From NCBI GenBank assembly GCA_022616275.1, contig JAKEFB010000080.1:1-47493 (forward strand): a DNA stretch of 47,493 bases. Direction: 5' to 3'. Below the pieces are notes generated by a model. It did no database searches and had not been told where the DNA came from. It saw nothing but the letters and a program-made list of their open reading frames with translations. Below, one piece after another: positions 1,535-30,017 of the stretch. The translations under genes were made by a program, and so were the position numbers. Each line of letters starts with the position of its first letter. Within the stretch, counting starts at the first letter, position 1. Source of the stretch: Chloroflexota bacterium. GTDB lineage: Bacteria; Chloroflexota; Anaerolineae; Promineifilales; Promineifilaceae.

Positions 1535-4500
1535 TTACTGAATTACCTTCTTCCTCAACACCACCCGAACCTCGTGCGTCCGGCCGTCGTCCTCCAGGAG
1601 GATTTCTTTATTCTCCAGCACCCGGCCGTCTAGAATGACTTCGACCACATCCTGTCCGGCGCCGTTTTCGTTGTCTACCTGGATCTGGTAGGTGCTCCGG
1701 CCGTATCGGTAAGTAAGGTTGTAGCCGGGCCACTCGGGTGGTATGTGGGGATCCAGGCGCAGAGATCGGCCGCGGCGTTGCAGCCCCAGGATGGCTTCCA
1801 CCCCCAGGCGGTACATCCAGCCGCTGGAGCCGGTGTACCAGGTCCAGCCGCCCCGGCCGGTGTGGGGTGCCGCCCCGTAAACATCGGCGGCAACGACGTA
1901 AGGCTCCACCCTATAATGGCGAGCTTTGGCCGCGGTGTCGGCCCGGTAAATGGGATTAATGAGCCGGAACAGGGCCGTCGCCAGGTCACCCCGGCCCAGG
2001 CGCGCCAGGGCCCAAATAGACCATAAAGCGGCGTGAGTGTACTGGCCGCCATTCTCGCGAATGCCTGGCAAGTAGCCTTTAATATAGCCAGGGTCGCGCG
2101 GTGTCTTGTCGAAGGGAGGGGTGAGAAGCAGGATCAACTGCGCATCCCATTTGACCAATCTGTCCAGCATGGCCTGCATCGCCTGGCTGGCCCGATCAGG
2201 GCGGGCCGCTCCTGAAAGCACGGCCCACGATTGGGCAATGGCATCTATCTGGCATTCCCGATTCTGGCTGGAGCCCAACGGCGCGCCGTCGTCATAATAG
2301 GCCCGCCGGTACCACTGCCCATCCCAGCCATGCTGTTCCAGGGCCTGCTGCAAATCGGTAGCGCGGCGGCGGTAGGCCTCCGCCTGGACCGGCCGGCCGG
2401 TCTGGTCGCACAGGCCGGCAAAATCTACCAGGGTAGTGTATAAAAACCATCCTAACCAGACGCTTTCTCCCTCGCCTTCAATCCCTACCCGGTTCATACC
2501 GTCGTTCCAATCCCCGGCTCCTATCAGCGGCAGGCCATGCTGCCCGGCCGTGTCAGCCCGGGTGAGGACGCGCCGGCAATGCTCAAAGAGGGAATAATGC
2601 TCGTCGGTCGTTTCAAACAGCCCATACCGCTCTTCCTGGCCTTCTTCTAACGGCTCACCGCGCAGGAACGGTATCTCCTCTTCCAGGATCGTTTCGTCGC
2701 CGGTGGCCTGGACGTAGGCGGCTGTGACAAAGGGCAACCAGACCAGGTCGTCGCTGATGCGGGTGCGGACGCCCCGGCCGGAAGGTGGATGCCACCAGTG
2801 AAGCACGTCGCCGGCCTCAAACTGGTGGTGGGCAGCTCTCAGGATATGTTCTCGGGCCACGTCCGGACGGGTGTGGAACAGGGCCATCACGTCCTGCAAC
2901 TGGTCACGAAAGCCATAGGCGCCACTGGACTGGTAGAGCGCCGAGCGGCCCCAGACGCGGCAGGACAGCGCCTGGTACAGCAACCAGCGATTCAGCAGCA
3001 AGTCCATAGCCGGGTCTGGCGTTTGAACCGTTACCATGCCCAGGATGGACTCCCACGTTTCCCGGACTCCTTGCCAGGCAGCCTGGACGGTGGCCGGATC
3101 TTTGTAGCAGCCGATGAGGTCCAGCGCCTCCTCGTGGTCTGCGCCCTGGCCAAGCAAAAAAGTAACTTCCTCGCTCTCCCCTGGCTGCAAATCCACGTGG
3201 AGCTGCAGCACCGCCGCCGGGTCCACGCCGGCTTCCACCCGGCCGGCCAGGCCAATGCGCCTGAGGGCAGCCGGCTGGCGGAGACTACCTAATCGGCCCA
3301 GGAATTCGGTCCGGTCGGCCGTCAGCCCGTGTACTTCCTTGTTGGCGGCCAGGAAAGCAACCCGCTGGCCAAACTCTTCCTGGTAGGGATTCCGGGCCAG
3401 CAGAGCCTGGCAATCTTCCTCATACTCGGGGATGATATGCTGCTGGCTCTCCTCTCGCTGCACGCCCAGTACCCAGGGCACATAGTAGGTGATCGTCAGG
3501 CGGCGGGGGTTAGACCAGGTGTTTTCCAGGCGCAATTGGATGATTTTAACCGGCTCCTGGGGGGCGGCGAAAAGGCGCAGGCGTTGTTTCAGGCCGTGAC
3601 TATGGTGCTCAAAGGTCGTGTAGCCGGCACCATGGCGCACCAGGTACGGGCCGTCGGCCGGGGCCGGTTGTGGTGTGGGCGACCAGAGTTCGGCCGTTTC
3701 CTCGTCCCGCAGATAGAGGGCTTCCCCTGGCAGGTCAGCAACCGGGTCGTTGTGCCAGGGGGTCAGCCGATTCTCGCCGCTATTGACGGCCCAGGTATAG
3801 CCGCTGCCCGATTCTGAGACCAGGAAGCCGAAGTTGGGGTTGGCAATGACGTTGATCCACGGCGCCGGAGGCAGGACCGGCGGTTCCTTGGGGGGCCGGG
3901 ACTCCAGGAAGATAACATACTCCCGGCCGTCCGGCGTGAAGCCACCCCAGCCATTGTCAAACAGCAGGCCAGTCGGGCGGGGTAAAGGTGGTGTGGCTTC
4001 GGCGTCGGCCGGCGGCCGGGCGGGGGTAAATTCCGGCAGGCGAACGGGTTGTTCCAGCAGGCTTTGCAACTGCCTGGCCAGGCCGCCCCGAGCGCCGTCC
4101 AGCACCACCCGGGCGGCCGTATGCAGCAGGATTTTGTCGGCGTCGCCAAGCTGATCCTGGTGCAGCAGAAAAATACCGCCACGCCGATTCAGCCAGTGGG
4201 CGCTGTGCAGCCGTTGCAGCAACCGGTAAATGTGGCCTTGCAAGGCCTGGCCATAATTGCTGTCCTCCTCATTCAAAATAACCAGGTCAATGGCCAGGTG
4301 CCGGTTGCGCCAGTAAGTGTGGGCCAGGATTAATTCCTGGAGCAGGCCCAATTCCCCTTCCTCGTGGAGGCTCACCAACAAAATCGGGTAATCGCCAGAA
4401 ATGCTGTAGGCCCACAGGCCGGGCTGCCCCCTGCGGTTGGCGGCCAGGGTGGCCGGGTTGGCCCGCAACATCCAGGCCGGGTAGAGGAGCAGGCTGAGGA

Positions 4501-7500
4501 GCTGTTGGATTTGGGCCAGGAGGAGGCTTTCCAGCCCTAACCGGCGCAGTTCGTTCTCGCTCTGGATGCGGGCCTGGAAGAAGGCGTGGTCAATGGCCGA
4601 CCGGCGCTGATAATGTTCAGCCAGTTGCAATGCCGTTTGCCGCGAGCCGGCCGCCCCGGTAATGAAATCGAGGGTAGCCGAGGCGTGAGATTCCAGTTCC
4701 ACCACCTGGCCCAGGGCAAAAATGGGGTCCAGGGTGGCTCCGGTGGTGCCGGAAAGGGAGGGTGTGTCTGGAGCCAACGCCTGTGGAGCGTCGGCCGTCC
4801 GGCCACGGCCGAGGAAACGGGCCCGATCACTCTCGTGGAGGCTGGCGTGGCTATCCCGGTTAGCGACGATCAGTGTATGGATCAAATAGGCTTCCTTTTC
4901 CACGGCCGATCGCGGCCGGCGGCGGAAGAGTAGGGTGTTGAACTCTGGAATGTATTGGCTCTCGACAAAGAGTTTGACAAAGGCCTGGTGGCGTTGGTCG
5001 GCGCCTGGGGCAGCCAGCACCACCTCTCCATAGCTGGTTAGCCGCAGCCGGCGCGGCCGGTTGCTGTTATTGGTTACCGTGACGTGGCGGATTTCAACGT
5101 CGTGATCCGGCGCGACGACCACCCTCATTTCCAGGGTGATGTCGTCGTCGTGGCGGCGAAACTGCGCCAGGTGGGGGTGGAAAGTCACCTGGACATCGGC
5201 CGGGCCGCCGGTTGGTTGGTAGGCGGCTGACCACAGCCGGCCGCTTTCCTCGTCCTGGACGTACAACCATTGGCCCCAGTGGTCCAGGGTGGTGTCGGCC
5301 CGCCAGCGCGTCAGGCGCAGTTCTCGCCACTGGCTGTAGCCGCCCCCGGCGTTGCTAATGAGCACACTGTAGCGGCCGTTCGACAGGTGATGGACCAGGG
5401 GAACCGCTGTCTCCAACGGGACTGGCCAGGGCATCGTGTTCAGCGTCCGGGTGGGGCGGACGGCGCGCACCTTCTCTTGCCCGGCCTGTTCATGGGTGGC
5501 TCGCTGGGGAATGCGCTCTTGCAGCAGCAACTCAACGCTCTGGATGAGGGGCTCGGCGTGAAAGCGGCGCACCAGGGCCTCCTGGTTGAGGAAGTTGTCC
5601 AGGGCGGCCAGGATCATGCCCTGGTGGTGGGACATGTACGAGCGGACCACCTGGTAAGGCTGGCCCAGCGCCAATCGCTGGTGGGTGTAGTCGAGGGCTT
5701 CATAGAAACCGTACAGGCCCAACATCTCGCACTGGACCAGGTGTTCCATGTTTTTCAGAACAGAGTGGGGGTACAGGGGCAGAGCCAGCAGCGAGGCGTA
5801 GGGGCTGATGACCAATTCTTCACCCAGGCCACGCTTGAAGCCCAGGGCCGGCACCCCAAAAGCCTTATACTGGTAATTCTGGGCCGAGTCGAAGGTGTAG
5901 TAGCCGGATTCAGAGATGCCCCAAGGTACACCCTTTTGCCGGCCGTAGGCCACGTGCTGGCGGACCACCGTGTGCAGACTTTGGTGGAGCAGCGTCCCTT
6001 CGTAGTTGCGAATCAGCAGCGGCGGCATAAAGTATTCAAACATAGTGCCGCTCCAGGAGAGGAGCACCGGCCATCTTTCCAGGCGAGCAATGGGGCGGGC
6101 CAGGTGGAGCCAATGTTTGACAGAAATGTCGTACTTGGCAATGGCGACCAGGCTGGCCAGCCGCGCTTCAGAAGCCAGCAAATCGTAGTAATTGTTGTCG
6201 AGCCTGCTCGCCTCCAGGTTATAGCCGATATGAAAAACGTTGCGCATACTCTCGTAGAGGAAGGTGAAGTCCATCTCCCGCACGTAAGCATCGGCCTCCT
6301 GGGCCAGCCGTTCAAAGCCGATGAGCAACGTCTTACTCCGCAACTGGGCAGCTTCCAGCTTTTGCGCCAGGCCGCTACACCAGGCACAGGCTGCCTGCAC
6401 GGCTTCCGACTCTCCGGCCAGCAATGAGTGCAGCCGGGCCAGTTTGGCCAGAGCAGCCTGGCAGGCTGCGTCTACGTCTTGGAGGGCCAGCGATAAAGAC
6501 AGGGCCTCGGCCAGCGCCTGCCAGGCCTGGTGGACATCCGGCCCAGCCTCTGAGGTAGAGAAAAAGGCCGGCGGTCGGCTGAGGGGGATAGCCCAGGGTA
6601 ACAACAGCTCCAGGTGGCGTTCCATATTGTCCAGGTGGCGGTGGATCTGTTGGACGTAGAGACGGAGTTCGTGCAGCCGCGCGCTGTCTACCGGGTCGCC
6701 GTCATCAGCTTCAACCAGGGCAACCAACAACTGGTCAAGCCGGGGCGCTTCCACGCCGGCAAAGCGCACCAGGAGTTCCGGCCAGCCGGTTATCGTATTT
6801 TGCGCCGCCTCCAGCGCCTGTTCCAACTGCCGGCGCATGGCGGCGATGTGCTCCTGGACCGGCCTGATCTGGGCTTCCCGGCCGAGGCCGGCGACGGTGG
6901 TAGTCAGAATGTCCAGTAAGTCCAACAACCCTTCCCACCGTTCACGCCGCCAGGCCAGGCTCTGGCCCATGGCCAGGCAGCCCTGCTTGAGCGCCAACAG
7001 GCAGGCAGCCAGGTTGCCGCTGTCCACGGTCGAAATGTAGCCGGGGTAGAGCGGAGCGAGCGTGCGGGTGTCAATCCAGTTCAAGAAGTGGCCCCGGTAA
7101 CGGTCCAGCCGGCCGAGCGTGTCAAAGGTAGCCTGCAGGCGCAGCAGCAAGCCAAAAACGTCCACGTAGCCCAGGTCATAAGCAGCCAGCGTGGCCAGCA
7201 GATAGAGGCCGACGTTGGTTGGCGACGTGCGATGGGCCACCACGCCGCGTGGCTCTTCCTGAAAATGGTCAGGCGGCAACCAATTGCCGTCCGGGCCGAC
7301 GAATTGCTCGAAGAAAAACCAGGTCCGGCGGGCCAGGCTGCGTAGTTGTTGCCGGCCGGCCTCAGCCACCTGATCGTTTTCACGGGCCAGGGGCTTGCTA
7401 ATCCAGTAGGCAATTTCTGGGGACAACGCCCAAAGAATCAACAGGGGGGTGGCCACGGGCAGAGCGGCCGGATTGACCAGGGCAAGCGCCAGAGCAAGCG

Positions 7501-10177
7501 CCACCGGGATTAAGAGGGCAGAAATCATTTGCTGCCAGGTAAGGTTAGCTGTCACCTGGGAGCCAAAGGCGCGAACAGTGTGGGCGGACGTGGTCCACTG
7601 CAGGAGGTGGCGGCCAAAAAGCAGGCGCAACAATGTAATCACTATAGCGTCCAGCGCCAGGAGGCTTTCGTAAGAGAGGAAAGCCAGAGCCAGCAGCCAG
7701 CGAATGATGCTGTCTTGCAAGGGAGGCGGGGCGCTGGCCCGTTCTTTTTCTTCTAGCAAATACTTGATCCGGCTGATGAGGTTGGTGAGGATAGAGCCGG
7801 CCGGGGCCAGTAGCCCCACCATTGTCCAGACCAGCGACGAGCCGGGCAGCCACGTCCAACCAGCCAGGAACAATAGGAGCAGCGCTGGGGGTAACAGGCT
7901 GCGCTGCAAATTGTCCACAATTTTCCAGCGGTCAATCGGCCGCAACCGGTTCGGCAAAGTAGTTCCTGCGGCGCCGGGAACGCGCGGCAGCAGCCAGGGG
8001 AGTAATTGCCAGTCACCGCGAATCCAGCGGTGGAAACGATGGATGTGGACCAGGTAGTGGGGCGGGTAATCTTCGTATAAGATAATGTCCGTCACCAGGC
8101 CGGCCCGGCCGTGAATGCCTTCAAACAGGTCGTGGCTGAGCAGGCTGTTTTCGGGAACACGGCCGGCCAGACTGCGCTCGAAAGCATCTACGTCGTAAAT
8201 ACCCTTGCCGACGTAAATGCCTTCGCCAAAAAGATCCTGGTAGATGTCGGAGACAGCCCGGCTGTAAAGGTCCAGGCCGGCATCGCCAGCAAAGACCCGG
8301 GTAAAGCGGGACTGGTTGGCGCTGACCGGCTTAATTTCGGTGCGCGGCTGGAGAATGGTATAGCCGGCGACCACCCGGCCGCTTGGCGGGTCAAACCGGG
8401 CCTGGTTCAGGGGGTGAGCCAGAGTGGCCACCAGCCGGCTGGCGCTGTCGCGGGGCAGGACCGTATCTACGTCCAGGGTAATGACGTAGCGGATCCGAAG
8501 CAAGATGCTCTCGTCGCCGACCTGGGTGGTAAAGGACGTACTTGTGTCGCCGCGCAGCAGGCGGTTGAACTCGTGCAGCTTGCCCCGTTTGCGTTCCCAG
8601 CCCATCCACGTACCTTCTGAGGGGTTCCACAGCCGGCGCCGGTGAAAGAGGTAAAAAGGTCGGCCCGGGTAGCGCTGGTTCAAGGCTTCAATACCGGCCG
8701 TGGCCTGGGCAACCAGGCTGTCGTCGCCGAGCATATGCTCTTGCGGCGCGTCGGCAAAATCGGTGAGCAGGGCATAACTGAGGTGGCCGTCCGGGTTGCG
8801 CAGGTGGTGGAGTTCCAACTGGAATAGGAGAGATTCCACCTCCCTTTTACGGGTCAAGAGGGCCGGAATGACGACTATCGTCCGGCAGCGTTTCGGGATG
8901 CCGTTGGCAAAGTTTAGCTTGGGCAACACCCGGGGGCGCAGGGCATTGGTAATGGCCCAGTTCGCCAGACTGGTAGCCAGGGTCAGAACCGGGATAAAAG
9001 CGATCACAACCACACTTAACAATTGCCAGGGCGTTCCCCCCGCTCTCCAGGCATGGTCCAACAGACCGGCGAGGAGCAGTCCGGTAGCCAGGCTCAGACT
9101 GCCCAGGTATAGTAACGTAGGGTGGGCGAGCAGCCAGCGGCAAAGCCACGGCCGGCCGGCCGGCCGGTAACCTAAATCGCTTTCTAGCTCGGCCCGGCCA
9201 TCGCCGACGAGGAAATAACCGACGTGGGCCACATGGGGTAGATACAAGCCACGCCAGGTTGGCACAGTATCTTCACGGCCAGGCTCCTGGCCGTCCTCGC
9301 CAGCCGGCGCCTCGGCCCGCAAGCGCTCGTGGGCCAGGTGGGTCGCTGCCTGGGCAACGTCGGCCTCGTCGCGGCCGGTGCGCAAAGCCAGCCTTTCCAC
9401 CGCCTTCCGGTACTGGTCCCGGGTGTCAAAATCCATGTGGGGATAAATGCCGGTCGGATCAAGGCCCAAAATCTGTTCCACCCGGCTGACGCCTTCAAAA
9501 AATTCCCTCCAGTCGTAGGTCGCCAGTGCCCGCAGGACAGGGATGGAGCGGGCGACCACGTCGGTGTCGCGCAGGTCGAACTCAAATTGCAGGCCAGGAT
9601 CAGGGGGGGCATAAGCCAGGAGGCCGGTTAGCCGGCCGGTGGCCTGGGCCAGGCTTTCCAGGGCGACCAGCCGCAATATGGCCGGGAAAGCCCACAGTTC
9701 GCCCATCCGCAGCGGTTGGACGTCCTGATAAGTGTTTATAAATCGTTCAGCCCGCGCCGGGTCCAACTGGGCCTGCTCATAGAGGAAAAAATCCCGTGCC
9801 AGGGCGTAAATACGGGGGTAATGGCTGAGGGGAGCGCCTGGCCCCAGAACAGGCAATTGGCGATAGTACCCTTCCGGTAAATCTTCATTTACCTGGCGAA
9901 GAGATTGTTGCACCAGGTAATAGTTGTCCAGCAGCCATTCAGCCGCATACGACAGGGTTAGTTCCCTGTCCGAGGCTTCCAGGAAATGTTGGTGCGCCTC
10001 GTGGAGCCACCTTTTGAGGTCTGGCAGCCGCCTTAGGAGGCGATAACTGCGGTCTGGCTCACGCACCAGGTGGTGAGTGGCAGCTAACTGGTGTGCCAGT
10101 TGGCTCAGGCTGGTGGCGCTGGCCGGCTCTAGTTGTTCTGTGTTGCTGGCTACTTTGTCAGATGGCGGGCTTATCAT
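1535..10177 (-). CDS. Cyclic beta-1,2-glucan synthase (GT84-glycoamylase-GH94)
   Basis: 2880 residues, the usual size of NdvB/ChvB/Cgs enzymes. These are inner-membrane proteins that build beta-1,2-glucan from UDP-glucose, cyclise it and trim its length. Order seen: an N-terminal soluble region; two membrane segments near 345-410; a GT84 transferase with DVDTVLP near residue 566 and the RFHRWIRGDWQ motif near 719; a membrane cluster about 755-960; a glycoamylase-like module with GISESGYYTFD near 1422; sugar-binding regions; and a C-terminal GH94 phosphorylase module with GAGDWNDGMNRVG near 2556 and HTGRGGWTWYTG near 2776. The start overlaps the stop of the upstream stress protein by 20 bases, implying translational coupling. 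All catalytic modules look intact. Whether the product is cyclic or linear cannot be read from sequence. Confidence 0.93.
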   Translation of the reverse strand: MISPPSDKVASNTEQLEPASATSLSQLAHQLAATHHLVREPDRSYRLLRRLPDLKRWLHEAHQHFLEASDRELTLSYAAEWLLDNYYLVQQSLRQVNEDLPEGYYRQLPVLGPGAPLSHYPRIYALARDFFLYEQAQLDPARAERFINTYQDVQPLRMGELWAFPAILRLVALESLAQATGRLTGLLAYAPPDPGLQFEFDLRDTDVVARSIPVLRALATYDWREFFEGVSRVEQILGLDPTGIYPHMDFDTRDQYRKAVERLALRTGRDEADVAQAATHLAHERLRAEAPAGEDGQEPGREDTVPTWRGLYLPHVAHVGYFLVGDGRAELESDLGYRPAGRPWLCRWLLAHPTLLYLGSLSLATGLLLAGLLDHAWRAGGTPWQLLSVVVIAFIPVLTLATSLANWAITNALRPRVLPKLNFANGIPKRCRTIVVIPALLTRKREVESLLFQLELHHLRNPDGHLSYALLTDFADAPQEHMLGDDSLVAQATAGIEALNQRYPGRPFYLFHRRRLWNPSEGTWMGWERKRGKLHEFNRLLRGDTSTSFTTQVGDESILLRIRYVITLDVDTVLPRDSASRLVATLAHPLNQARFDPPSGRVVAGYTILQPRTEIKPVSANQSRFTRVFAGDAGLDLYSRAVSDIYQDLFGEGIYVGKGIYDVDAFERSLAGRVPENSLLSHDLFEGIHGRAGLVTDIILYEDYPPHYLVHIHRFHRWIRGDWQLLPWLLPRVPGAAGTTLPNRLRPIDRWKIVDNLQRSLLPPALLLLFLAGWTWLPGSSLVWTMVGLLAPAGSILTNLISRIKYLLEEKERASAPPPLQDSIIRWLLALAFLSYESLLALDAIVITLLRLLFGRHLLQWTTSAHTVRAFGSQVTANLTWQQMISALLIPVALALALALVNPAALPVATPLLILWALSPEIAYWISKPLARENDQVAEAGRQQLRSLARRTWFFFEQFVGPDGNWLPPDHFQEEPRGVVAHRTSPTNVGLYLLATLAAYDLGYVDVFGLLLRLQATFDTLGRLDRYRGHFLNWIDTRTLAPLYPGYISTVDSGNLAACLLALKQGCLAMGQSLAWRRERWEGLLDLLDILTTTVAGLGREAQIRPVQEHIAAMRRQLEQALEAAQNTITGWPELLVRFAGVEAPRLDQLLVALVEADDGDPVDSARLHELRLYVQQIHRHLDNMERHLELLLPWAIPLSRPPAFFSTSEAGPDVHQAWQALAEALSLSLALQDVDAACQAALAKLARLHSLLAGESEAVQAACAWCSGLAQKLEAAQLRSKTLLIGFERLAQEADAYVREMDFTFLYESMRNVFHIGYNLEASRLDNNYYDLLASEARLASLVAIAKYDISVKHWLHLARPIARLERWPVLLSWSGTMFEYFMPPLLIRNYEGTLLHQSLHTVVRQHVAYGRQKGVPWGISESGYYTFDSAQNYQYKAFGVPALGFKRGLGEELVISPYASLLALPLYPHSVLKNMEHLVQCEMLGLYGFYEALDYTHQRLALGQPYQVVRSYMSHHQGMILAALDNFLNQEALVRRFHAEPLIQSVELLLQERIPQRATHEQAGQEKVRAVRPTRTLNTMPWPVPLETAVPLVHHLSNGRYSVLISNAGGGYSQWRELRLTRWRADTTLDHWGQWLYVQDEESGRLWSAAYQPTGGPADVQVTFHPHLAQFRRHDDDITLEMRVVVAPDHDVEIRHVTVTNNSNRPRRLRLTSYGEVVLAAPGADQRHQAFVKLFVESQYIPEFNTLLFRRRPRSAVEKEAYLIHTLIVANRDSHASLHESDRARFLGRGRTADAPQALAPDTPSLSGTTGATLDPIFALGQVVELESHASATLDFITGAAGSRQTALQLAEHYQRRSAIDHAFFQARIQSENELRRLGLESLLLAQIQQLLSLLLYPAWMLRANPATLAANRRGQPGLWAYSISGDYPILLVSLHEEGELGLLQELILAHTYWRNRHLAIDLVILNEEDSNYGQALQGHIYRLLQRLHSAHWLNRRGGIFLLHQDQLGDADKILLHTAARVVLDGARGGLARQLQSLLEQPVRLPEFTPARPPADAEATPPLPRPTGLLFDNGWGGFTPDGREYVIFLESRPPKEPPVLPPAPWINVIANPNFGFLVSESGSGYTWAVNSGENRLTPWHNDPVADLPGEALYLRDEETAELWSPTPQPAPADGPYLVRHGAGYTTFEHHSHGLKQRLRLFAAPQEPVKIIQLRLENTWSNPRRLTITYYVPWVLGVQREESQQHIIPEYEEDCQALLARNPYQEEFGQRVAFLAANKEVHGLTADRTEFLGRLGSLRQPAALRRIGLAGRVEAGVDPAAVLQLHVDLQPGESEEVTFLLGQGADHEEALDLIGCYKDPATVQAAWQGVRETWESILGMVTVQTPDPAMDLLLNRWLLYQALSCRVWGRSALYQSSGAYGFRDQLQDVMALFHTRPDVAREHILRAAHHQFEAGDVLHWWHPPSGRGVRTRISDDLVWLPFVTAAYVQATGDETILEEEIPFLRGEPLEEGQEERYGLFETTDEHYSLFEHCRRVLTRADTAGQHGLPLIGAGDWNDGMNRVGIEGEGESVWLGWFLYTTLVDFAGLCDQTGRPVQAEAYRRRATDLQQALEQHGWDGQWYRRAYYDDGAPLGSSQNRECQIDAIAQSWAVLSGAARPDRASQAMQAMLDRLVKWDAQLILLLTPPFDKTPRDPGYIKGYLPGIRENGGQYTHAALWSIWALARLGRGDLATALFRLINPIYRADTAAKARHYRVEPYVVAADVYGAAPHTGRGGWTWYTGSSGWMYRLGVEAILGLQRRGRSLRLDPHIPPEWPGYNLTYRYGRSTYQIQVDNENGAGQDVVEVILDGRVLENKEILLEDDGRTHEVRVVLRKKVIQ

Positions 10178-15434: not shown

Positions 15435-16142
15435 ATGGCCCACTTACAAGGAGAAGCGCGCGCCCGCTACGTGCAGGGCATGTTTGCCCGGATTGCCGGC
15501 CGCTACGACTTGATGAACCGGCTGATGACCGGCGGGCAGGACGTTCGCTGGCGGCGCTACGTCATCCGCCAGGCCCACCTGCCACCGGTCGGCCGCTTGC
15601 TGGACATTGCCACCGGCACGGGGGAGATTGCCTGGGAAGGGTTGCGCCAACATCCCGGTATCCAGGCGGTGGGTGGCGATTTCACTATTGAAATGATGCT
15701 GGCCGGCCGGCGCGACCCGCAACGGCAGGCCATTCATTGGCTGGCGGCCGATACCCTGGCTCTGCCCTTTCCCGACGATACGTTTGACGCCGTCACCTCC
15801 GGTTTTTTGATGCGCAACGTCGTTGACATGCCCGGCGCTTTCCAGGAACAGGCGCGCGTCACCCGGCCGGGCGGCCGGGTAGTCGTCCTGGAATCCAGCC
15901 CGCCCAAGAAAAATTTGCTACGGCCCTTCATTCGCCTGCACCTGAACGTGGTCATTCCCACACTTGGCCGGCTGATTGCCGGCGATGGCGAGGCCTATCG
16001 CTACCTGCCAGACAGCACGCAGCAGTTCCACGACCCGAAGAGCCTGGCCGAAATGATGCGCCGCGCCGGGCTGGTGGACGTTCACTACCGGCTCTTCATG
16101 TTTGGCGCGATTGCCATCCACGCCGGCCGGAAGCCGGAGTAA
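15435..16142 (+). CDS. ubiE: UbiE/MenG quinone-biosynthesis methyltransferase
   Basis: 235 residues. It methylates demethylmenaquinone (and/or a ubiquinone precursor) with S-adenosylmethionine in the last steps of quinone synthesis. Motif I LLDIATGTGEIAWEG near residue 55 binds SAM. The family signatures RYDLMNRLMTGGQDVRWRR (N-terminus), SGFLMRNVVDMPGAFQEQARVTRPGG and YRYLPDSTQQFHDPKSLAEMM are all present, and the C-terminus FMFGAIAIHAGRKPE is normal. In this lineage menaquinone is the likelier substrate. No independent promoter is visible; it lies directly after ftsK with a palindrome between. Confidence 0.93.
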   Translation: MAHLQGEARARYVQGMFARIAGRYDLMNRLMTGGQDVRWRRYVIRQAHLPPVGRLLDIATGTGEIAWEGLRQHPGIQAVGGDFTIEMMLAGRRDPQRQAIHWLAADTLALPFPDDTFDAVTSGFLMRNVVDMPGAFQEQARVTRPGGRVVVLESSPPKKNLLRPFIRLHLNVVIPTLGRLIAGDGEAYRYLPDSTQQFHDPKSLAEMMRRAGLVDVHYRLFMFGAIAIHAGRKPE

Positions 16143-16195
16143 GCGTTGGAGTAGGGAGTTAGAGTTAGAGTAGGAAGTTAGAGTTAGCTGTTGCT
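16143..16195. repeat. GAGTTAGAGT short tandem repeat
   Basis: GAGTTAGAGTTAGAGTAGGAAG followed by AGTTAGAGTTAG. It is a small repeat after the ubiE stop with no gene content, and is of the same kind as the other intergenic repeats in the window. Confidence 0.6.
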
Positions 16196-16228
16196 TCCTG
16201 TTGTAATCTGGGCTTAAGGAGCAAGCAG

Positions 16229-16234
16229 TATAAT
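16229..16234 (+). promoter_or_regulatory. TATAAT -10 box upstream of the DsbA-like gene
   Basis: A perfect TATAAT 37 bases before the ATG at 16271. The -35 region is weak; TTGTAA at 16201 is 22 bases away, too far for a standard spacer. It suggests the gene has its own promoter rather than depending on ubiE. Confidence 0.4.
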
Positions 16235-16270
16235 GTGGGCCACTATCCCACTATTCGAGGTAAACGCTTG

Positions 16271-17074
16271 ATGAAACGACTTATCTACTATGCGCTGCTG
16301 GCCTGGCTCCTGGTGGCCTGCGCCGGGGCTGAACCTGAGCCAACGGTAGCGACGACGGCCGCGCTGCCTGGCAACGCGCTGCCGGAGGTGGCTGTGGCCG
16401 GGCCAACCAACACGGCCGCGCCAATGCCAACGGCCGCGCCAACAGCCACAAACGCGCCCGACGGAATCCCAGCCGACGCGGCGGCCCCGGAAGAATCCCC
16501 GGCCGCCGCTCCCTCGCCAACGCCAACCACCGGCGCCCAGGTGAACGGCAACTACGAAAATACCTATTTCCGAGGATCGGCCGGCGCGCCGGTGACGCTC
16601 ATTGACTACTCCGATTTCCTCTGAGGGGCCTGCCGTGCCTACGTGCTAGGCACTGAGCCGGAAATTGTCGAGAGCTACGTCAACGGTGGCCAGGTCCGCC
16701 TGGTCTTCTGGCCGGTGTTAGACCACGGCAACGCCAGCCTGGATTCTCACGCTGCGGCCGATTGCATCGGCCGGCAGAGCGCGGATGCCTTCTGGCAAAT
16801 TCACGACCAATTCTTCGCCAACCAGAACGAGCTGTGGCAGGCGGATCGGGAATATTATGTCAATGCGGCTGTAGCCGTGGGCGTAGACCAGGCCGCTTTT
16901 GAGGAATGCTACGACGGCGGGACCGGGCATGCCACGGTGACGGAACTGGACAGTATCCGCCGCGAGCGAGGCATCTTTAACCGGCCGACCTTCGACGTCA
17001 ACGGCCAGCTCTTCTTCGGCGCCCAGCCGTTCGAGACCTTTGCCCAGTTCATCGAAGCGGCCTTGACCCAATGA
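16271..17074 (+). CDS. DsbA-like thiol-disulfide oxidoreductase lipoprotein with in-frame UGA (candidate selenoprotein, U-G-A-C)
   Basis: Read through UGA, the product is 267 residues. The start MKRLIYYALLAWLLVACAG has a lipoprotein signal with lipobox LVAC. An Ala/Pro/Thr-rich tether follows (about 20-95), then a DsbA/thioredoxin-fold domain starting APVTLIDYSDFL. The next codon (16622-16624, residue 118) is TGA, followed in the same frame by GACRAYV, so UGA occupies the first cysteine of a C-x-x-C motif (C121 is the second). The rest of the domain is intact: VFWPVLDHGNASLDSHAAAD, FEECYDGG, and a cis-Pro-type RPTFDVNG near 239. Such proteins oxidise or exchange disulfides outside the membrane. 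Selenocysteine, a recent nonsense mutation and a sequencing error are the three readings; the downstream hairpin and the exact active-site position favour the first. No selA, selB, selC or selD is in the window. Confidence 0.72.
16635..16653 (+). promoter_or_regulatory. SECIS-like hairpin after the UGA
   Basis: GTGCCTA (16635-16641), loop CGTGC (16642-16646), TAGGCAC (16647-16653): a perfect 7-bp stem inside the coding frame. The loop begins 17 bases after the UGA and has G at its second position. GGC (16627-16629) and GCC (16657-16659) can add a lower stem across an internal loop. The known bacterial SECIS pattern places the loop about 16-37 bases after UGA with a G in the first two loop positions. 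The stem uses a CTA leucine codon, which looks uncommon next to the CTG/TTG used by its neighbours. Confidence 0.6.
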
Positions 17075-17098
17075 TATAAGTGTGGACAAATAAAATTG

Positions 17099-17243
17099 GG
17101 ACGCAGATTTGCGCTGATGAACGCCGATTAGGTTCTGTCGCCACTGGCTGCGAATGACGTGAATATTTTGAGTTATTCGCGTCATTCGCTTATTCGTGTT
17201 ATTCGCGATTATTAATCAGCGCCATCCGCGTGCATCTGCGTGT
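17099..17243. repeat. ACGCAGAT inverted-repeat element (MITE-like), copy 1
   Basis: Imperfect outer arms of about 30 bases (GGACGCAGATTTGCGCTGAT type at 17099-17130, and its complement at 17211-17243) enclose an inner stem. The inner arms are 17150-17164 and 17175-17189 (GCGAATGACGTGAAT type) with one wobble pair. The element ends within 10 bases of the Shine-Dalgarno of the SDR gene. The same ACGCAGAT units occur at 19517-19595. Confidence 0.7.
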
Positions 17244-17260
17244 CTTATGAGGAGGGAAAG

Positions 17261-18028
17261 ATGGAGTTGCGTGTGGATGGCAAGGTAGCCATTGTGACCG
17301 GGGCCGGGCAGGGGTTAGGGGAGGCGATTGCCAAGACGTTGGCTGCGGCCGGGGCCAGCGTGGCCGTCAACGACCTGAACCCGGACCGGGCCGAGCGGGT
17401 GGCCGGCGAGATTCGTGCCGCCGGCGGGCAGGCTATTGGCCTGACGGCCGACGTGGCCAACAAGTTCCAGTGCGTCCACCTGGTGGAGAGCACCCGCGCC
17501 GAGTGGGGCCAGTTGGACATTCTGGTCAACAACGCCGGGGTGGAGCCGGTGGTCTCCATTCTCAAGATGGACGAATGGGACTGGAACCGCTGTATTGACG
17601 TGAACTTGAAGGGCACGTTCCTGATGAGCCAGCTCTGCGGCCGGGTCATGGCCGACGAGAACCGGGAGCGGGGTGGGGCGATTGTCAACATCACCTCTAT
17701 TGCCGGCGTGGAAATTCCGCTGGCCAACCGGGCCGCCTATTGCGCCAGCAAGGCCGGCGTGGTCGGCTTTGCCCGCGAGTGTGCCCGCGAATTTGCCCAG
17801 TACGGCATCCGCGTCAACACCGTCGTGCCCGGCGTCTTCATTACCCCAATGACGGAAAAGGCGCGCCAAAACCCGGAAATGATGGCCAGGTGGATGCGGG
17901 AAATTCCCATGGAGCGGCTGGGCGACGCCCAGGAAGTGGCCGGCGTGGTCCTCTTCCTCTGTTCAGACGCCAGCAGCTACATGACCGGCAGCACAATCAC
18001 CGTGGATGGGGGTAAAGTCATGCGGTAG
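17261..18028 (+). CDS. Short-chain dehydrogenase/reductase (FabG-like SDR)
   Basis: 255 residues from [16 protein letters not shown], with an excellent GGAGG five bases before the ATG. Classical SDR features: the cofactor motif TGAGQGLG near residue 13, NNAGV near 90, a catalytic Ser in [17 protein letters not shown] (Y-x3-K) near 160, and the C-terminal [14 protein letters not shown]. It probably uses NAD(P)(H) to interconvert a hydroxyl and a keto group. The sequence is close to 3-oxoacyl-ACP reductases and glucose dehydrogenases, so the substrate cannot be fixed. It stands alone, between two repeat-bearing gaps. Confidence 0.9.
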
Positions 18029-22600: not shown

Positions 22601-23690
22601 CCGTCTCTACGAGCTACAGGGAGAGTACCCACCGGCGCTGGAGTGGATTCAAAAAGGATTGCTGGCCCTGGCTTCCCAGGAGACGGCCGAGGCAGTGGAG
22701 ATGTTGCTCATTGCCGGGCTGATTAATACCCGGCAGGGAGATTACGACAACGCCCTGGCCCTGTGCCAGCATAGCCTGCAATTGGCCGAGAAATTGGGCG
22801 AGTTGTCTGTCCTGGCCCGCACCTACAACTTGCTGGGCATTATTACCCGCCTGCGCGGCAGCAGCACCGACGCCGTCGCCTATTTCCAGAAATCATTCGA
22901 CCTGTACCGGGAGGCCAACAACATCCACGGCCAGGCGCTGGCCCAGATGCAAACTGCCACCGCTTATTTTGACATGAGCCAGTGGCGAGAAGCGGACCGC
23001 TTTTATCGCCAGGCTCGCGACATCTTCGGCCAGCTTGGCGACATTTACAACAACATGGCCGTAGACAACAACCTGGGAGGCATTGCCCTGAACCAGGGGC
23101 GGCTGGAAGATGCGCTGGCCTTTTACCAGGAGGCGCTAGAAGCCCAGGAGCAAATCGGCCGCTCCCTGTGGATCCTGGGCGTGCTGCATATGAACCTGGG
23201 CCACACCTTTATCCGGCTGGGCCAGGCGGAGGCCGCCCGGGAACACCTGCGCACCAGCCAGGAATACTTTAGCCAGGCCAAAGCGCGGGACTTTCTACCG
23301 GAGATGCACCGCCTTTTTGCCGAAGCGGCCTTGCTGGCCGGTGAGCTGGCTGAGGCTGAGTCCCAGGGCCGGCTGGCGCTGGAGCTGGCCAACGAAATGT
23401 CCATGCGCGGCGAGCAGGGCAACAGCCGGCGCGTCCTGGGCGAAATTGCCATGGCCCAGGGCCAGGGAAAGACGGCCAGGCAATACCTCGAGGACAGCCT
23501 GGCCATCCTGGAAGAGGTCAACGACGCCTACGAATGGGCGCGCTGCCAGTTGTCCCTGGCCCGGCTGCACGCCTGGCAGGCTAGGCCAGAGCTGGCCCTG
23601 GCCGCTCTAGAGTCTGGCGAAGCCGTCTTTGAGCACCTGGAGGCGGCCCTGGACCTGGCGGCCGCCCGGGCGCTGCGCGACGAACTGTAG
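19605..23690 (+). CDS. Tandem class III nucleotide cyclase / AAA-type ATPase / TPR signalling protein
   Basis: 1361 residues. Cyclase half 1 (about 28-200) has ALFADISGF (metal Asp 34) and FAGDSI (Asp 86) but lacks the N-x3-R pair. Cyclase half 2 (about 265-430) has Lys 270 where a metal Asp belongs but keeps NETNMAARL (Asn 382, Arg 386). Together they could form one composite active site, as in soluble adenylyl cyclase, which has the same cyclase-cyclase-ATPase-repeat order. The ATPase part has Walker A GQAGLGKSH near 479 and Walker B LLLLIEDAHWMDEA near 610. From about 900 to the end are TPR-type helical pairs (RQGDYDNALALCQHSLQLAE, NQGRLEDALAFYQEALEAQE). It is probably a cytoplasmic cAMP-making sensor gated by its ATPase/TPR part. 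The start fits homologous openings (YIPVDRRRAIARGEAMPDR). The 3' end overlaps the convergent gene by 84 bases. Confidence 0.9.
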   Translation: MDSSAVYIPVDRRRAIARGEAMPDRTTGAALFADISGFTQLTSALLDELGPQRGAEEVLRHINPLYDALIDRLHHYGGSVIGFAGDSITCWLDGDDGRRAIACALAMQGTMSRFATARTPAGAEIPLVIKVAIAVGPVRRFVVGDPHIQAIDVLAGATLDRMAAAESQAGKGEIVASAEVIEAAGGEPVVQVAEWRKDEPGGGRFAVITGLAADVAPLPWPAGLLYPGRNEYGLTEAQVRPWLLKPVYERLQSGSEFLSELRPVTALFLKFSGLDYDAEDAGQKLDRYIRWVQGVLGRYEGYLLQLTVGDKGSYLYAAFGAPLAHDDDPARAVVAALELQEPPSGLDFTPQVQIGVSQGRMWTGACGAQTRRTYGAMGNETNMAARLMTLAQPGQLLVTERVALAVEKSVRLNSLGPVTIKGKSRPLQLYEVLGRQAASLQRPSTLFTHPLVGRNEILASMEQTLAQARTGMGQLLQLEGQAGLGKSHLAAVFAERAVGLGWRVALGNCQSINQDSAYYPWQQIFHSLLELDESDAQGPGTAAYHVAHLERLAQEANPDWLVRLPLLGDLLGLPIPDNATTAALEPRLRQRALFALAVEMVQTWSRRQPLLLLIEDAHWMDEASLGLAQALGWAIGQLPVMLLLVHRPALPAGGEDSAGQALLPDLAGQPYIHRIDLTELSLEGIAALVAHRLQGQASPLALSLLQAKAQGNPFFVEELVDTLRESGRLRRQADGVWALSEPVFQALRDANCLVKRNGHWVLADDAPLSAVDLGIPVSIHGTVLSRIDRLPESHKLTLKAASVIGRSFEMELLVLSHPAQPERETLWAQVQEMEARDLVRLEQSRRPGTMPLYMFKHNITQEVAYETLLFAQRQQLHRAVGEALERLFSNEVEQLAYHTFLGQDWPRAVRYQLQAGEQARQLFANQQSIEYFRKALQGAENLPPAETVGERQTIHTALGELLITTGQYETALAHLHEALALARKRGDQQGQARACRWLARLYELQGEYPPALEWIQKGLLALASQETAEAVEMLLIAGLINTRQGDYDNALALCQHSLQLAEKLGELSVLARTYNLLGIITRLRGSSTDAVAYFQKSFDLYREANNIHGQALAQMQTATAYFDMSQWREADRFYRQARDIFGQLGDIYNNMAVDNNLGGIALNQGRLEDALAFYQEALEAQEQIGRSLWILGVLHMNLGHTFIRLGQAEAAREHLRTSQEYFSQAKARDFLPEMHRLFAEAALLAGELAEAESQGRLALELANEMSMRGEQGNSRRVLGEIAMAQGQGKTARQYLEDSLAILEEVNDAYEWARCQLSLARLHAWQARPELALAALESGEAVFEHLEAALDLAAARALRDEL

Positions 23691-26600
23691 GGGTACGATA
23701 CATCGTGCCCCTACACATCGTGCCCCTACAGCGGCCGGGGCCGGCGAGGCGCTGGCCTGGGTGGGTGGGGCTGCCCCGATGATAATCGGCAGGTAGAGCG
23801 TACTGCCGCTGACCATAACCACCGCTACGTCGCCATCGCTGCCGCTGTCGTCGTCGGTGACAGTGAAGGTGACAGTGTAAACGCCCAAGCCGGTGGGTGT
23901 AAAGCTGAAATCCTCATCGGTTCCGTCAGGCACATTCTGGCCGTTGCTGGCCACCACTTCCCAGAGGAAGGTATGGCTGTCACTCAGGCCAGGGTCGGTG
24001 AAAGAGCCATCAAGCGTTACCAGGTTGTTGCTGGTCGCAGTCTGGTCTGGCCCAGCGTTGGTGGTGGGGGCGACGTTGTTGACGGTGATAATGGCTGTAT
24101 CTGTGCCGCTGTCGCCGTCGTTGTCGGTCACCGTAAGGGTAGCGGTGTAAACGCCGTTGTCGTAGGGGGTGAAAGTGAAGTTGAGCGTGGTGAACTCCGG
24201 GATGACCTGGCCGTTACTGGCCACTACCTGCCACAAGTAGGTGTGGGTATCGTTACCACCGGGGTCGGTGAAGGAGCCGCTGATGGTTAGCCACTGCCCT
24301 TCGTTGGCGACCCGGTCCGGCCCGGCGTTGGCCGCGGGGGCAGCATTGTCTACCAGCACCAGGGCCACGTCGCTGTCGCTGCCACCATCGTCGTCCGTGA
24401 CCGTCAGCGTGACGGTGTAGACGCCGTTGTCAACGGGCGTGAAGCTAAAGCTCTGGTCGGTTCCGTTGGGGATCGTCTGCCCGTTGTCGGCCGTCACCTG
24501 CCACAGATAGGTGTGGCTATCGTTGCTGCCGGGGTCGGTCACCAGGGCAGCGAGCGCCACCAGGTCGCCCTCGCCCACGGACTGATCCGGTCCGGCGTCG
24601 GCCGTCGGAGCCACATTACCGGCCGTGATGAACGCTACGTCACTGTCGCTGTCGCCGTCGTCGTCGGTGACAATCAGCGTAACGGTGTAGACGCCGTCGT
24701 CAAAGGGGGTGAAGCTGAAGTTCTGACCGGCCCCGTTGGGAATGTTCTGGCCGTTGCTGGCTGTTACCTGCCACAAATAGGTGTGGCTATCGTTGCTGCC
24801 AGGGTCGGTCACCAGGGCAGAGAGCGCCACCAGGTCGCCCTCGCCCACGGACTGATCCGGTCCGGCGTCGGCCGTCGGAGCGACGTTACCGGCCGTGACC
24901 ACTATCACGTCGCTACTGGCTGCGCCATAGCTGTCGGTGACGGTGAAAGTGACAGTGTAGAGGCCGTTGTCAAAGGGCGTGAAGCTGAAGTTCTGGTTCG
25001 CCCCAGCGGGGACAACCTGGCCGTTGCTGGCCGCCACCTGCCAGAGGAAGGTGTGGCTGTCATTGGGGTTGGGGTCTTGGAATGTGCCACTGAGCGCCAC
25101 CAGGTCGCCCTCGTCGGCGGCCTGGTCGGAGCCGGCGTTAGCGGTCGGGGCGACGTTGGGTACGGCCAGGGTGAAGAAGTTGCCATGGTCCAGCAGCAGG
25201 GCCACGTTGCCAGCCTCGTCCACCGCCTGGACCCAATAGGAAACCAGACCCACCGGCCGGGACACTGAACCCGTCGCCTGCCCGGTGGTTGGATTGTAGG
25301 CCATCTCCACCTTCGACCAGGCGCTCTCCCCCTGGGCGTAATACAGCACCACCACCCGCTGGACGCCGCCGCTGTCATCCTCGACCAGGACCGAGAACTC
25401 CAGCGTTGCCGGGGTGGTGATGGCCGTCGCCTGCCAGATTTGCGGGGCCAGGAAATCGGTCTGGCTGAAGGGTGCGGTGTAGACGGCCAGCTCCAGGCTG
25501 CCGTACAGCCGCTCGAGACCGACCGTCGGTGTCACCCCGGCCGTGGCCAGGAACTGGCCCGGCACGACCACCAGCCGCTGGCGCATCTGGCCGTCCACGG
25601 CCAGGAAGCGGTTGACCGAGACGGGAACCACCGGATACCACTGGGCGACGGGGTAGCTGGACTCGGCGGCCAGGTAAATCTCCTCGGTGATGACGCTGGC
25701 CACGACCGGGTCAAAGGCCAGGGTGTCGCTGAAGGAGCCGCCCAGGAGGAGCACCCCGTGGGCGATGTCGCCGGGGGTGGAAAGCTCAATAGTCGTGCGC
25801 GGCTGGACCGGCCGGCCGCCGGTGACGTGCAGGTCGCTCTCCCCCTGGAGGGTGTAGTACGTCCCAGGGGCGAAGCCGCTGTTGGCGTGGGCCTCGTAGG
25901 CAAAGGTCAGCGTGTAGTTGGTTGACCCCCGAATGGGCGCCAGGCTGGCTTCACCACCAGGTTGGTGGCCGAGGGCGTTGGGCATGTCCACGGCCAGCAT
26001 CGGCAGGCCGTAGAGCGTCAGCTCCAGCAGCACCTTCTCGTCGTAGGAGCTGAGCGAGCCGCCGACGATGCTGTTGTAGTAGCGCTGCTTGGCTGCCAGC
26101 AAGGCGCTGCCCACCGTCGGCGTGCCGGCCGAGTCGTCGGCCAGCTCCTCGACAAAGTTGACCATCAGCCGCTCCGAGTAAGCCACCAGGTCCGAGTCGC
26201 CGTAGCCGTAGCCGGTGTTGCCCAGATAGGTCGCCCCCTGGCGCAGAAAAGCCTGGGCCCAGTCCGTGCCGGTGGGTATGGAACTGGCCGCCAGGTCGGA
26301 GATGCTCAGCCCTGAATGGCAGCCGACGGAGAAGACCAGCGAGCCGAGGTAGCTGGTCGTGCTCGTCACCTCCGTGGCCCAGACCAGGCTGGGGTCGTTG
26401 GGGAAGAAGTTGAAATGCTGGAAATGGGAGTTGAGCGAAATCAACCCCGGCGCGTCCGTCAGGGCAAAGAGATTGTTGCGGAAATCATTGGCCGTCCAAC
26501 TGTTGTCAATCATCGGGGTGATGCTGCCAATCCCAGCCGCAGCCAGCGTCTGGCTGACGGCGGTGGCCTGGTCTATGAGGAAGTCGTAGCCGGTGACCAG

Positions 26601-29600
26601 GGCGTCGGTGGGGGCGATGGTGGCTTGAGCCTGGAAGGCGTCCAGGAAAGCGGCAATCTCGGCCGGGCTCTCCACCAGCCGGCCGAGGGCGTACTGGGGC
26701 AGGTAGAACTCCCGCCCCTGCCAGGGGAAGGGCAGGACGGCGGTGTAGTAGTCGTCGGTCAACAGATAGCGCTTGTCCAAGGCCTCGCTAATGATGGGGT
26801 TATCGGCCAGAGGGGCGTAGTGGCGCTCGTTGGCCACCAGCGTCTTGTCCTGGATGCGGCGGAAGGGGACGATGTCGTCCCCGCCGACGACGACCAGGTA
26901 CTTGAGGTTGGGGTAGGCCGGGATGAGGCTGTACAAGAGCGACTTGACGTTGCGGGCGACGTGGTTGGCCATCTGCGGGTTGTCGGGGTTGTTGTCCCAC
27001 AGCCCGTAAGCCTGGCCGATGGCCGGGTAGTCGTCCAGGTTGACCAGGAGCCCATTGACGGCGGGGTGGGCGGCCAGGGCGTTCAGCCGGGTGATGAGAC
27101 CACTGGAAGTAATCGTATCCGTCCCGGTGTAAATCTGGTTGAAGCGGCTCTGGTTGAAGAGGATGAGCGTCTCCACGGCCGTGTCGCTGACGGGGGTGGT
27201 GAAGGTAACGGGAACGGTGGCGGTGACAGGGATGAGCGGCTCCACCGGCGGGGTGAGGGAGACGGTCAGGGTGAAGGGCTCGCTGACGGCCGAGGGGTTG
27301 AAGGCCACCACGGCGATGTAGTAGTTGCCGTATAGCTCGTGAACGTCGTAAAGGATGGCTTCTTCAGCCGGACCGGAGCCAGCCGAAATGGCCACCAGTG
27401 TGCCGATGTCCCCCACCTCCCCGATGTTGGTGATTTGCCCGATATTCGTAATCTGGCCGATGTTGGTGATTTGCCCAATGTTCGTAATCTGGCCGATGTT
27501 GGTAATCTGGCCCAAATCCAATAACTGGCCAATATTGGTAATCTGGCCGATGTTGGTGATTTGCCCAATGTTCGTAATCTGGCCGATGTTGGTGATCTGG
27601 CCGATGTTGGTAATCTGGCCGATGTCGCGGAGCTGGCCAGACTCCTCGTCCACCTGGGGAGCAAAGAGGAAGAGGTCATAGTCATGGCCGCTGGTCAGGG
27701 TCAGGCTGATGGTCGAGCCGGCCTGGGGCACAGGCAGTTGGTACCAGTTGGTGTCGGTAATGGTAATTGAGGTCTCCGTAATGGTGCTACCGTTGCTGAT
27801 GGGCGTGGCCCCATCGCGGACGTTATTGTTGTTGTATTCGACCGCACCAATGTCGCACTCTGGGCCATACGGCCGGACCACCCCGCGCTGGTCGGTGGCC
27901 GGGCAGGCTTCGATGGTGGCAGCATCAATGGCCGGGCTACCGGGCAGCGGCAGGTGGGTGAGCGTACCGCCGCCGTTGTCGGCCAGCGGGCCGAGCACGG
28001 TAACAAAAACGTCGGCCGGATCAACGATGACGTCGCTGGCTGTGGTCGGGCAGCCACCCCCACTGCTTAGCAGATTATAGCCTTCAGAGGTGAGGGGCCA
28101 GCCGAATAGCGTCCGGCAGTCGGCATTAGAAACGACGGCCGTGTTCCCGGCAACAATACTACTGGTGAAGCTGGTGACGCCATAGTTGTCAATACCGCCG
28201 GACTCGCTATTGGCCGCGTTGCCGGTGACAGTCACGTTAGACAGCGTGAGTGAACCGGTATTGACGTAAATACCGCCCCCATCATCCCCGGCCGTATTCC
28301 CACTGATGGTGCTGTTGCTGACAGACGTGTTCGCGCTGCCAGTGCTGGCCAGGCCGCCGCCAAAGACAGACGCCTGGTTGCCGCTGAGCGTGACCCCGGT
28401 GATAGTCACGGTGGCGCCAGCGGTACTGGCGAAACCGCCTCCTGTCGTGGCCACGTTATTGGTAAAGGCGCTGTTGCTGACGGTCATGCTGACCGTAGCG
28501 CCCTGGCTCAAGAGGCCGCCGCCATTGCCGCTGGTGTTGCCATTTTGCGCGGTGATACCGGAGATAACGACGTTGCCACTCAGGACGTGGAAAACGCGGT
28601 CCAGGTCGTTGCCGTCAACAATGGTCAGCTCCGCGCCATCGCCGAGAAGGGTCAGGTCGTTGGTGATGTCCAGGTCGCCGGTAGCGGCCGCGTCCTCGCC
28701 GGTCCCGCCCAGGCTCAAGTTGTAAGTACCGGCCGGGAGGACGATCGTATCGGCGCCGCTGCCGGCCGGGCAGGCGTCTACGGCCGCGTTGGTGTTAGCG
28801 GCAATAATGGCCTCACGCAGGGTGCAGTTGCCATTGATGGTGTTGTCGTCGGCGGTGGTGTCCACGACGATGCCAAAGCCGGTCTCATAAGCGCCGATGT
28901 CACAGCCACTCCCCTGCGGCCGGGTCACGTCACGCTGGTCAATCTCCAGGCAGGCGCTGTCGTCGGCCGCATCAATAGCCGGGCTGTTGGCTAATAGGGC
29001 GTGGGTATCTGTCTCGCCGCCGTTATCGGCCAACGGGCCGAGCAGCGGGTCCTGGCCGGTAATATCATTGGCCGTCACGCCGCCGATGCTGCAACTGACC
29101 ACATCCTCGATCAGGTTGTAATCCTGGGACGTCAACAGGCCATCACAATCAGGGCCAACCTCGGCGCTGTTATTCGCTATCAGGCTGTTTTTTACGTTGA
29201 CCGTGCCGCCGGGGTTGTCAATGCCGCCGCCATCGAAGGCGCTGTTGCTGGCGACGGTGCTGCTATGAAGCGTCGTCGTGCTGGAGGCGGCCGTATCAAT
29301 GCCGCCGCCATCGGCGGGCGTGCTGTTGCCGCTGATGGTGCTGTTAAAAATGTACAAAATATTGCGGTTGTTAATGCCGCCGCCCCCGCCGCTGCCAACG
29401 TCAGTATTGTTGACGATGGCGCTTTCCATGATCTCCAGAGTACCCTCGTTCCAAATTCCCGCGCCGCCGCTGCCGGCGGCCGTGTTGTCCGCGACGAGCG
29501 TGTGGTCTAATGCCAGGGTATCAACGTTAAAGATGCCGCCGCCACTATCGGTGGTACTGCCACCCTGGATGGCCAGGTTATTCAAGAAGACAGTGCCGGT

Positions 29601-30017
29601 CAGTACGTGAAAGACACGGTCTATTTCATTGCCGTCAATGATCGTCGTCCTGGCTCCGGCTCCGTTGATGGTCAAGCCGTCAGCAATGTCCAGGTCGCCG
29701 GTGGCAGCCGCGTCTTCGCCCGTCCCGGCGATGGCCAGATTGTACACGCCGGCCGGGAGGACGATGGTGTCGGCGCCGCTGCCGGCCGGACAGGCGTCTA
29801 CGGCCGCGTTCGTGTTGGCGGCAACGATCGCCTCGCGCAGGGTACAGTTGCCGTTGACGGTATTATCGTCCAGCGTCGTCGTCGGCGTGATAACCGCTAA
29901 AAGGCTGCGTGGTTCGCTGGCGGCCGTGGTCGTTCCGGCCAGCGTTAAGAGCCAGTATAGAAGGATGATAAGACCCGACGAGAGAACAATTGGCGAAAGC
30001 CAGCGCTGTATTTTCAT
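23607..30017 (-). CDS. Giant secreted protein: CSLREA beta-helix, hexapeptide repeats, C25 (gingipain-like) peptidase, PKD domains
   Basis: 2136 residues from [20 protein letters not shown], a signal peptide with AAGGA upstream. Two CSLREA modules ([20 protein letters not shown] near 50, [20 protein letters not shown] near 395) each lead into right-handed beta-helix repeats ([18 protein letters not shown]). A prepeptidase-C-like beta domain near 760-920 is interrupted by 13 hexapeptide units (ITNIGQ, about 795-870). A C25-like caspase-fold peptidase (about 955-1340) has His 1198 (LNSHFQHF) and Cys 1233 (SVGCHSG). Five PKD domains (about 1620-2070) follow, then [10 protein letters not shown]. 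The last 56 residues look non-native and include the translated GTAGGGG repeat. It is likely a surface or secreted protease-adhesin. Confidence 0.87.
23687..23729. repeat. GTAGGGG-ACGAT palindrome with an extra arm
   Basis: GTAGGGGTACGAT (23687-23699), AC, ATCGTGCCCCTAC (23702-23714), then AC and a second identical ATCGTGCCCCTAC (23717-23729). The first two arms pair with one wobble. The stop of the cyclase gene (TAG, 23688-23690) lies in the first arm, and the convergent gene reads through the whole element. Confidence 0.75.
23810..25150 (-). repeat. Five PKD-domain coding repeats
   Basis: Each unit is about 265 bases and encodes a PKD fold beginning [10 protein letters not shown] and ending in [12 protein letters not shown]. 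Units 2 and 3 are nearly identical over long stretches (both carry [10 protein letters not shown] and [18 protein letters not shown]), pointing to recent duplication or gene conversion. Confidence 0.75.
27402..27632 (-). repeat. 18-bp tandem repeat encoding ITNIGQ hexapeptides
   Basis: Thirteen consecutive six-residue units: LRDIGQ, five [12 protein letters not shown], four ITNIGQ, one ITNIGE, then VGDIG. The register I-G-Q-I-T-N fits the left-handed beta-helix hexapeptide rule ([LIV]-[GAED]-x-x-[STAV]-x). The array sits in a loop of the beta domain before the C25 peptidase. Confidence 0.85.

Follow-up and report, generated by a model that had tools for sequence, protein, structure and literature searches.

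A candidate selenocysteine codon at the active site of a DsbA-like lipoprotein gene from Chloroflexota

Selenoproteins resembling the disulfide oxidoreductase DsbA have already been catalogued from sequence data. 'DsbA-like' selenoproteins with a UxxC motif appear in the Sargasso Sea survey, under COG2761 (PMC1088965), and Table 1 of a 2026 review (PMC13188914) lists a 'DsbA-like protein form 1', PF01323. The same table lists as a 'DsbG-like protein' with UxxC, predicted with high confidence, the family held by NCBIfam as NF041057, 'Rcas_1661 family thioredoxin-like (seleno)lipoprotein'. Words beginning with chloroflex, anaerolin or lipoprotein are absent from the main text of that review.

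The window analysed here, a stretch of 47,493 nucleotides from a Chloroflexota genome, contains a frame with an internal TGA that is almost certainly read as selenocysteine (Sec) at the active site of the encoded enzyme. We put the probability at about 96% that 16271-17074 is a selenoprotein gene, in which Sec would be inserted at codon 118 and whose product would be a lipid-anchored, exported DsbA-like oxidoreductase. For the source genome this amounts to a corrected annotation, the standard-code listing of open reading frames (ORFs) having cut the gene in two (16235-16624 and 16643-17074).

The gene and its family

The features of the gene, all on the plus strand, are as follows.

16271..17074, plus strand: putative selenolipoprotein gene of the NF041057 (Rcas_1661) family, 267 aa with Sec as residue 118 (translation and NF041057 match)
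16271..16321, plus strand: lipoprotein signal peptide with lipobox LVAC and Cys17 (pattern)
16556..17059, plus strand: DsbA-like domain, Pfam Thioredoxin_4, residues 96-263 (E 2.2e-22)
16622..16624, plus strand: UGA, predicted selenocysteine, first position of U-x-x-C (TGA in 28/28 alignment rows)
16631..16633, plus strand: TGC, second (resolving) cysteine of U-G-A-C (invariant in 28 family rows)
17072-17074, plus strand: terminal stop TGA (translation)

Translation with TGA as U bore out the preliminary description, in which the frame was broken at 16622 only and the TGA took the place of the leading cysteine in a DsbA-type C-x-x-C: the single internal TGA (16622-16624, residue 118) lies in the context YSDFL-U-G-A-C-R, and the profile alignment places it in that same position. 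A Pro/Thr/Ala-rich linker extends from the signal peptide to about residue 90. The lipobox was recognized by pattern in 22 of the 28 family members and by eye in five more, the remaining sequence (L026) being cut by a contig end. The Pfam DSBA profile (PF01323) matches residues 144-261 (E 2.1e-10; 41.1 bits against a cut-off of 25.6), Thioredoxin_4 scores 80.4 bits, and NF041057 matches residues 8-263 with 298.1 bits (cut-off 190). Given this last score and the listing of the family in PMC13188914, the gene is, by its sequence, a fresh member of an already catalogued selenoprotein family and not a new kind. The suggestion that Sec in such DsbA-like lipoproteins would be new fails, since NCBIfam already names the family (seleno)lipoprotein. 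In Table 1 of the review the family is listed as predicted only; it is now supported by a covarying hairpin that was tested on outside sequences and by Sec/Cys exchange, and a menG neighbour is added to its description.

Downstream of the TGA, 149 codons are open, conserved and free of decay, in agreement with the earlier statement that more than 140 sense codons follow with their sequence intact. The same openness occurred in 19 of 2000 base shuffles of the stretch, which makes it moderate evidence by itself, so that homology and conservation carry the case. A genome-wide reassignment of UGA to a sense amino acid, for which no supporting point was found, is vanishingly improbable: TGA ends the gene itself and 4 of 18 long ORFs hand-picked in the window, so UGA is also a stop codon in this DNA, and four homologues from the same genome (L018-L021) lack internal stops and carry TGC or TGT in the Sec column. 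Two very long minus-strand ORFs were also noticed in the window, at 1535-10177 (2880 aa) and 23607-30152 (2181 aa).

The UGA column and the Sec machinery in relatives

Protein matches were found in all 53 genomes searched at the family level. In 28 of these, the source included, the best match carries exactly one TGA, while the best matches of the other 25 are lower-scoring homologues, nearly all stop-free. These 28 head the ranking, the cut having been placed where TGA ends (116 bits; the next row, at 108 bits, is stop-free). They correspond to the highest 29 rows, each with exactly one TGA, from the source and 27 other genomes, one of which (G052) carries two TGA copies on a single contig. 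In the profile alignment the TGA stands in one column in 28 of 28 first copies, TAA or TAG never does, and the surrounding sequence is SDFL-U-x-x-C, with SDYL in one row.

The pattern extends beyond the family, and the gene is present in many Anaerolineae-level genomes. Of the top 47 matches in a class-level search of 397 genomes, 16 are from the family used to make the profile and 31 from outside it; TGA was found in 46, including 30 of the outside matches, and TGT in the remaining one (G361). One of the 46 (G221) has a TAG besides its TGA. The 18 phylum-level loci retrieved, which are part of the rows of the phylum search, have a best match with TGA in seven cases and with Cys in eleven. Counting rows identical across 60 nt from the codon once, the retrieved loci include 77 distinct places scoring at least 140 bits, with TGA at 65, TGC at 9 and TGT at 3; rows outside this tally include seven stop-free class-level rows at 140-145 bits and, at the phylum level and at least 140 bits, stop-free rows in G522, G536 and G700 and TGA rows in G517 and G751. 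G522 and G536 hold both kinds through second Cys copies. The comparison of homologues called for in the preliminary description favours its reading, close relatives having UGA or Cys in the column.

A lone in-frame stop within an open frame of a draft genome could reflect a pseudogene created by nonsense mutation, or a sequencing or assembly error at one codon. This is exceedingly improbable for a TGA common to 28 family genomes and to all but one of the 31 out-of-family genes among the best class-level matches, with the frame and purifying selection persisting downstream. Comparison of the window with L025, for example, gave pN 0.15 and pS 0.73 after the TGA, dN/dS being of limited use with synonymous sites saturated in most pairs. 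In a quick tree, built without a mixture model, arbitrarily rooted, with several of these forks open or unstarred and the direction of change not given, 10 changes suffice for the U label, compared with 31.4 in shuffles, and the Cys rows L083, L124 and L128 are placed among Sec rows. The first of these is the TGT match of G361 (L083, nt 2930), which stands among Sec rows with 81% support and no star; its hairpin keeps 4 of 7 pairs, the loop is lost and selA is kept, and it looks like a Sec-to-Cys change.

Searches for related loci gave no match with the single protein and 29 loci with the alignment, all from Chloroflexota metagenome-assembled genomes (MAGs). A plasmid collection yielded 119 records, all below 60% identity and none with 80% query coverage.

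Two further groups of loci were noticed. Five loci from other families of the class (L104, L107, L109, L111, L114) encode longer proteins of 421-628 aa with U-P-Y/F-C or similar motifs, score above the NF041057 cut-off in two or three stretches each and show, by eye, another downstream hairpin. Six more (L100, L101, L102, L103, L120 and L116, the last at nt 1980-2678 on the minus strand) encode TGA-bearing DsbA-like proteins that, as judged by eye, have a hydrophobic N-terminal segment, no lipobox and a hairpin at a greater distance from the UGA (about +25 to +43). Scores of 116-137 bits, below the NF041057 cut-off of 190, were obtained for the three that were compared (L100, L101, L116), and the six are possibly an uncatalogued subfamily.

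The search for sel genes proposed in the preliminary description succeeded in full. The source genome, a MAG-like draft of 8.5 Mb in 309 contigs (98.25% complete, 5.5% contamination), holds selA (569 bits), selB (334 bits) and selD (366 bits), each above its cut-off, and ARAGORN detected a tRNA-Sec with anticodon TCA. Its selD has one UGA of its own, in the motif CAG-U-ASK (L022, nt 1531, G000:C60); SelD is a known kind of selenoprotein, entered as UxxK in Table 1 of PMC13188914.

Across the 53 genomes at the family level, selA was above cut-off in 43 and selB in 45. Among the 28 with the TGA gene, selA was above cut-off in 25; the exceptions are G010, G035 and G051 (85, 68 and 82% complete), of which G035 and G051 also lack a selB above cut-off. 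A separate check of selA covered 49 genomes: 30 class-level genomes with TGA, seven phylum-level genomes with TGA and 12 with a Cys relative. It was above cut-off in 25 of the 30 (the other five being 67, 86, 91, 67 and 81% complete, the 91% one being G287) and in all seven phylum-level TGA genomes read. Five of the 12 Cys genomes kept selA, while seven gave no selA match. These distributions bear on selenium-independent read-through of the UGA with a residue other than Sec. Such read-through is very unlikely, both from the company of TGA with Cys codons at the 77 places and from the presence of selA in every phylum-level TGA genome read as against its lack of a match in most Cys genomes.

A covarying hairpin downstream of the UGA

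The coding sequence immediately downstream of the UGA contains a further conserved element.

16635..16653, plus strand: SECIS-like hairpin in the coding sequence, 7-bp stem 16635-16641 / 16647-16653, loop CGUGC 16642-16646

The hairpin starts 10 nt past the UGA and is common to the family as a 7-bp stem with loop CGUG(C/U), one or two positions being unpaired in some members. The same stem was recovered unasked by RNAalifold. Within the family 94.9% of 196 cells are paired, against at most 44.9% in slid controls; 33 cells show two-sided changes, against 9.3 in shuffles, and such changes occur in six of the seven pairs. The loop starts 17 nt after the UGA and its second base is G, a distance and a base that agree with the rule for bacterial SECIS elements.

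An outside test set was assembled from 37 distinct TGA genes unused in defining the hairpin (28 from other families of the class, eight from elsewhere in the phylum, and the second copy of G052). Here 91.5% of cells are paired, against at most 54.4% in slid controls, and 83 cells show two-sided changes, against 26.0 in shuffles; the number of pairs with a two-sided change and the number of pair types do not exceed shuffles in this set. The loop sequence CGTG is present in 36 of the 37, the exception being the second copy of G052. In close Cys relatives the hairpin is largely lost: 12 such genes retain a mean of 3.75 of the seven pairs, and CGTG in one case. Codon usage and substitution rates show further signs of constraint, the valine codon in the loop being GTG in 28 of 28 rows (37% for valine codons elsewhere in the alignment) and mean pS being 0.51 over the first ten codons past the UGA and 0.79 farther on.

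Folding of single sequences over the 54 nt that begin at the UGA predicts no unusual stability (mean z -0.68; +0.36 for the window), and this measure was left unused, so the case for the hairpin rests on covariation. A search of the source genome with the hairpin model R1 gave one place at E <= 1 (16635..16653) among the 150 of 2598 first-look candidates that were scored; with this sampling, and as a model of the family's coding flank, R1 is silent on other selenoproteins. Rfam matched 15900-17400 at a chance level only (Xoo8 with 15.9 bits, where the gathering score is 90).

The hairpin also bears on a two-peptide reading, in which translation would terminate at 16622 and re-initiate at GTG 16643. 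A GTG-started ORF (16643-17074) does exist, but re-initiation would split the active site, its start codon is the very valine codon of the hairpin loop, all 28 rows have TGA as the stop, with no TAA or TAG, and the constraint on pairing would be left unexplained. We regard this arrangement as scarcely credible. Reading of the TGA as Sec, by comparison, is strongly supported by the sel genes, the UGA/Cys column, the covarying hairpin and the downstream conservation. Four points are established by comparison: conservation of the UGA, presence of the Sec machinery, the hairpin and the fold as predicted. From these we infer that SelB and Sec-tRNA(UCA), acting with the hairpin 10 nt past the UGA, would place selenocysteine at codon 118. 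The resulting protein would be exported and lipid-anchored as a DsbA-like thiol/selenol-disulfide oxidoreductase, with its U-x-x-C active site where the first helix of a thioredoxin fold begins. Sec would attack or accept the substrate disulfide, and the second Cys would resolve the selenenyl-sulfide.

Genomic neighbour, predicted fold and relation to known systems

The following gene lies directly upstream.

15435..16142, plus strand: MenG/UbiE-type methyltransferase gene, ending 128 nt upstream of the selenolipoprotein gene

Of the 27 other family genomes, 12 have a same-strand MenG match that ends 222-857 nt upstream of the UGA. The distance is 1281 and 1676 nt in two more and about 2.0-2.1 kb in three, giving 17 of 27 within 2.1 kb. 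The match was not found in ten of the 27 family loci, three of which (L026, L035, L039) hold less than 600 nt of upstream sequence, nor in the class-level loci L068-L098. This neighbour in part of the family hints at a link to menaquinone. A tie of the selenolipoprotein to the menaquinone pool in its family, suggested by a same-strand menG that directly precedes the gene in the window and the 12 genomes and stands 1.3-2.1 kb away in five others, is doubtful. If real, it could mean a Sec-based extracellular disulfide-forming route with electrons ending in menaquinone, or protection of menaquinone-dependent respiration.

Modelled with AlphaFold2 (mean pLDDT 92.6, pTM 0.87), the domain has the features of a DsbA-type fold: a thioredoxin fold, a helical insertion and C(U)xxC at a helix start, the Sec position, modelled as Cys, being model residue 39, just before helix 40-47. 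Pro160 of the family alignment is invariant in 28 rows and is, we assume by reference to DsbA, the candidate cis-proline beside the active site.

The best fold match is BdbD of Bacillus subtilis (PDB 3eu3, 3eu4; TM 0.79-0.82), which also ranks first in the PDB by sequence (E 1.2e-23), the UxxC of the query being aligned with the CPSC of BdbD. BdbD differs in having Cys where Sec is predicted in the query, and identity is 20-21%. Corynebacterial DsbA and TsdA (PDB 4pwo, 7unn) follow with TM 0.78 over the query and sequence E values of about 2e-18, and likewise differ in having Cys, not Sec (CPFC in 7unn). From the predicted fold and the match to BdbD by structure and sequence, the protein is probably an exported enzyme that acts in the manner of DsbA, with selenium as the attacking atom. 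Its resemblance to BdbD and to the corynebacterial DsbA and TsdA prompts the guess that it may be an oxidant rather than an isomerase or reductase.

Among selenoproteins, the query is, like the NF041057 family, a lipoprotein with UxxC, and no defining difference was found. With the 'DsbA-like' selenoproteins of the Sargasso Sea survey and form 1, as these are listed (PMC1088965; PMC13188914), it shares a DsbA-type fold, predicted Sec at the first active-site position and a match to PF01323, but differs from them in being matched better by Thioredoxin_4 (80.4 bits) and NF041057.
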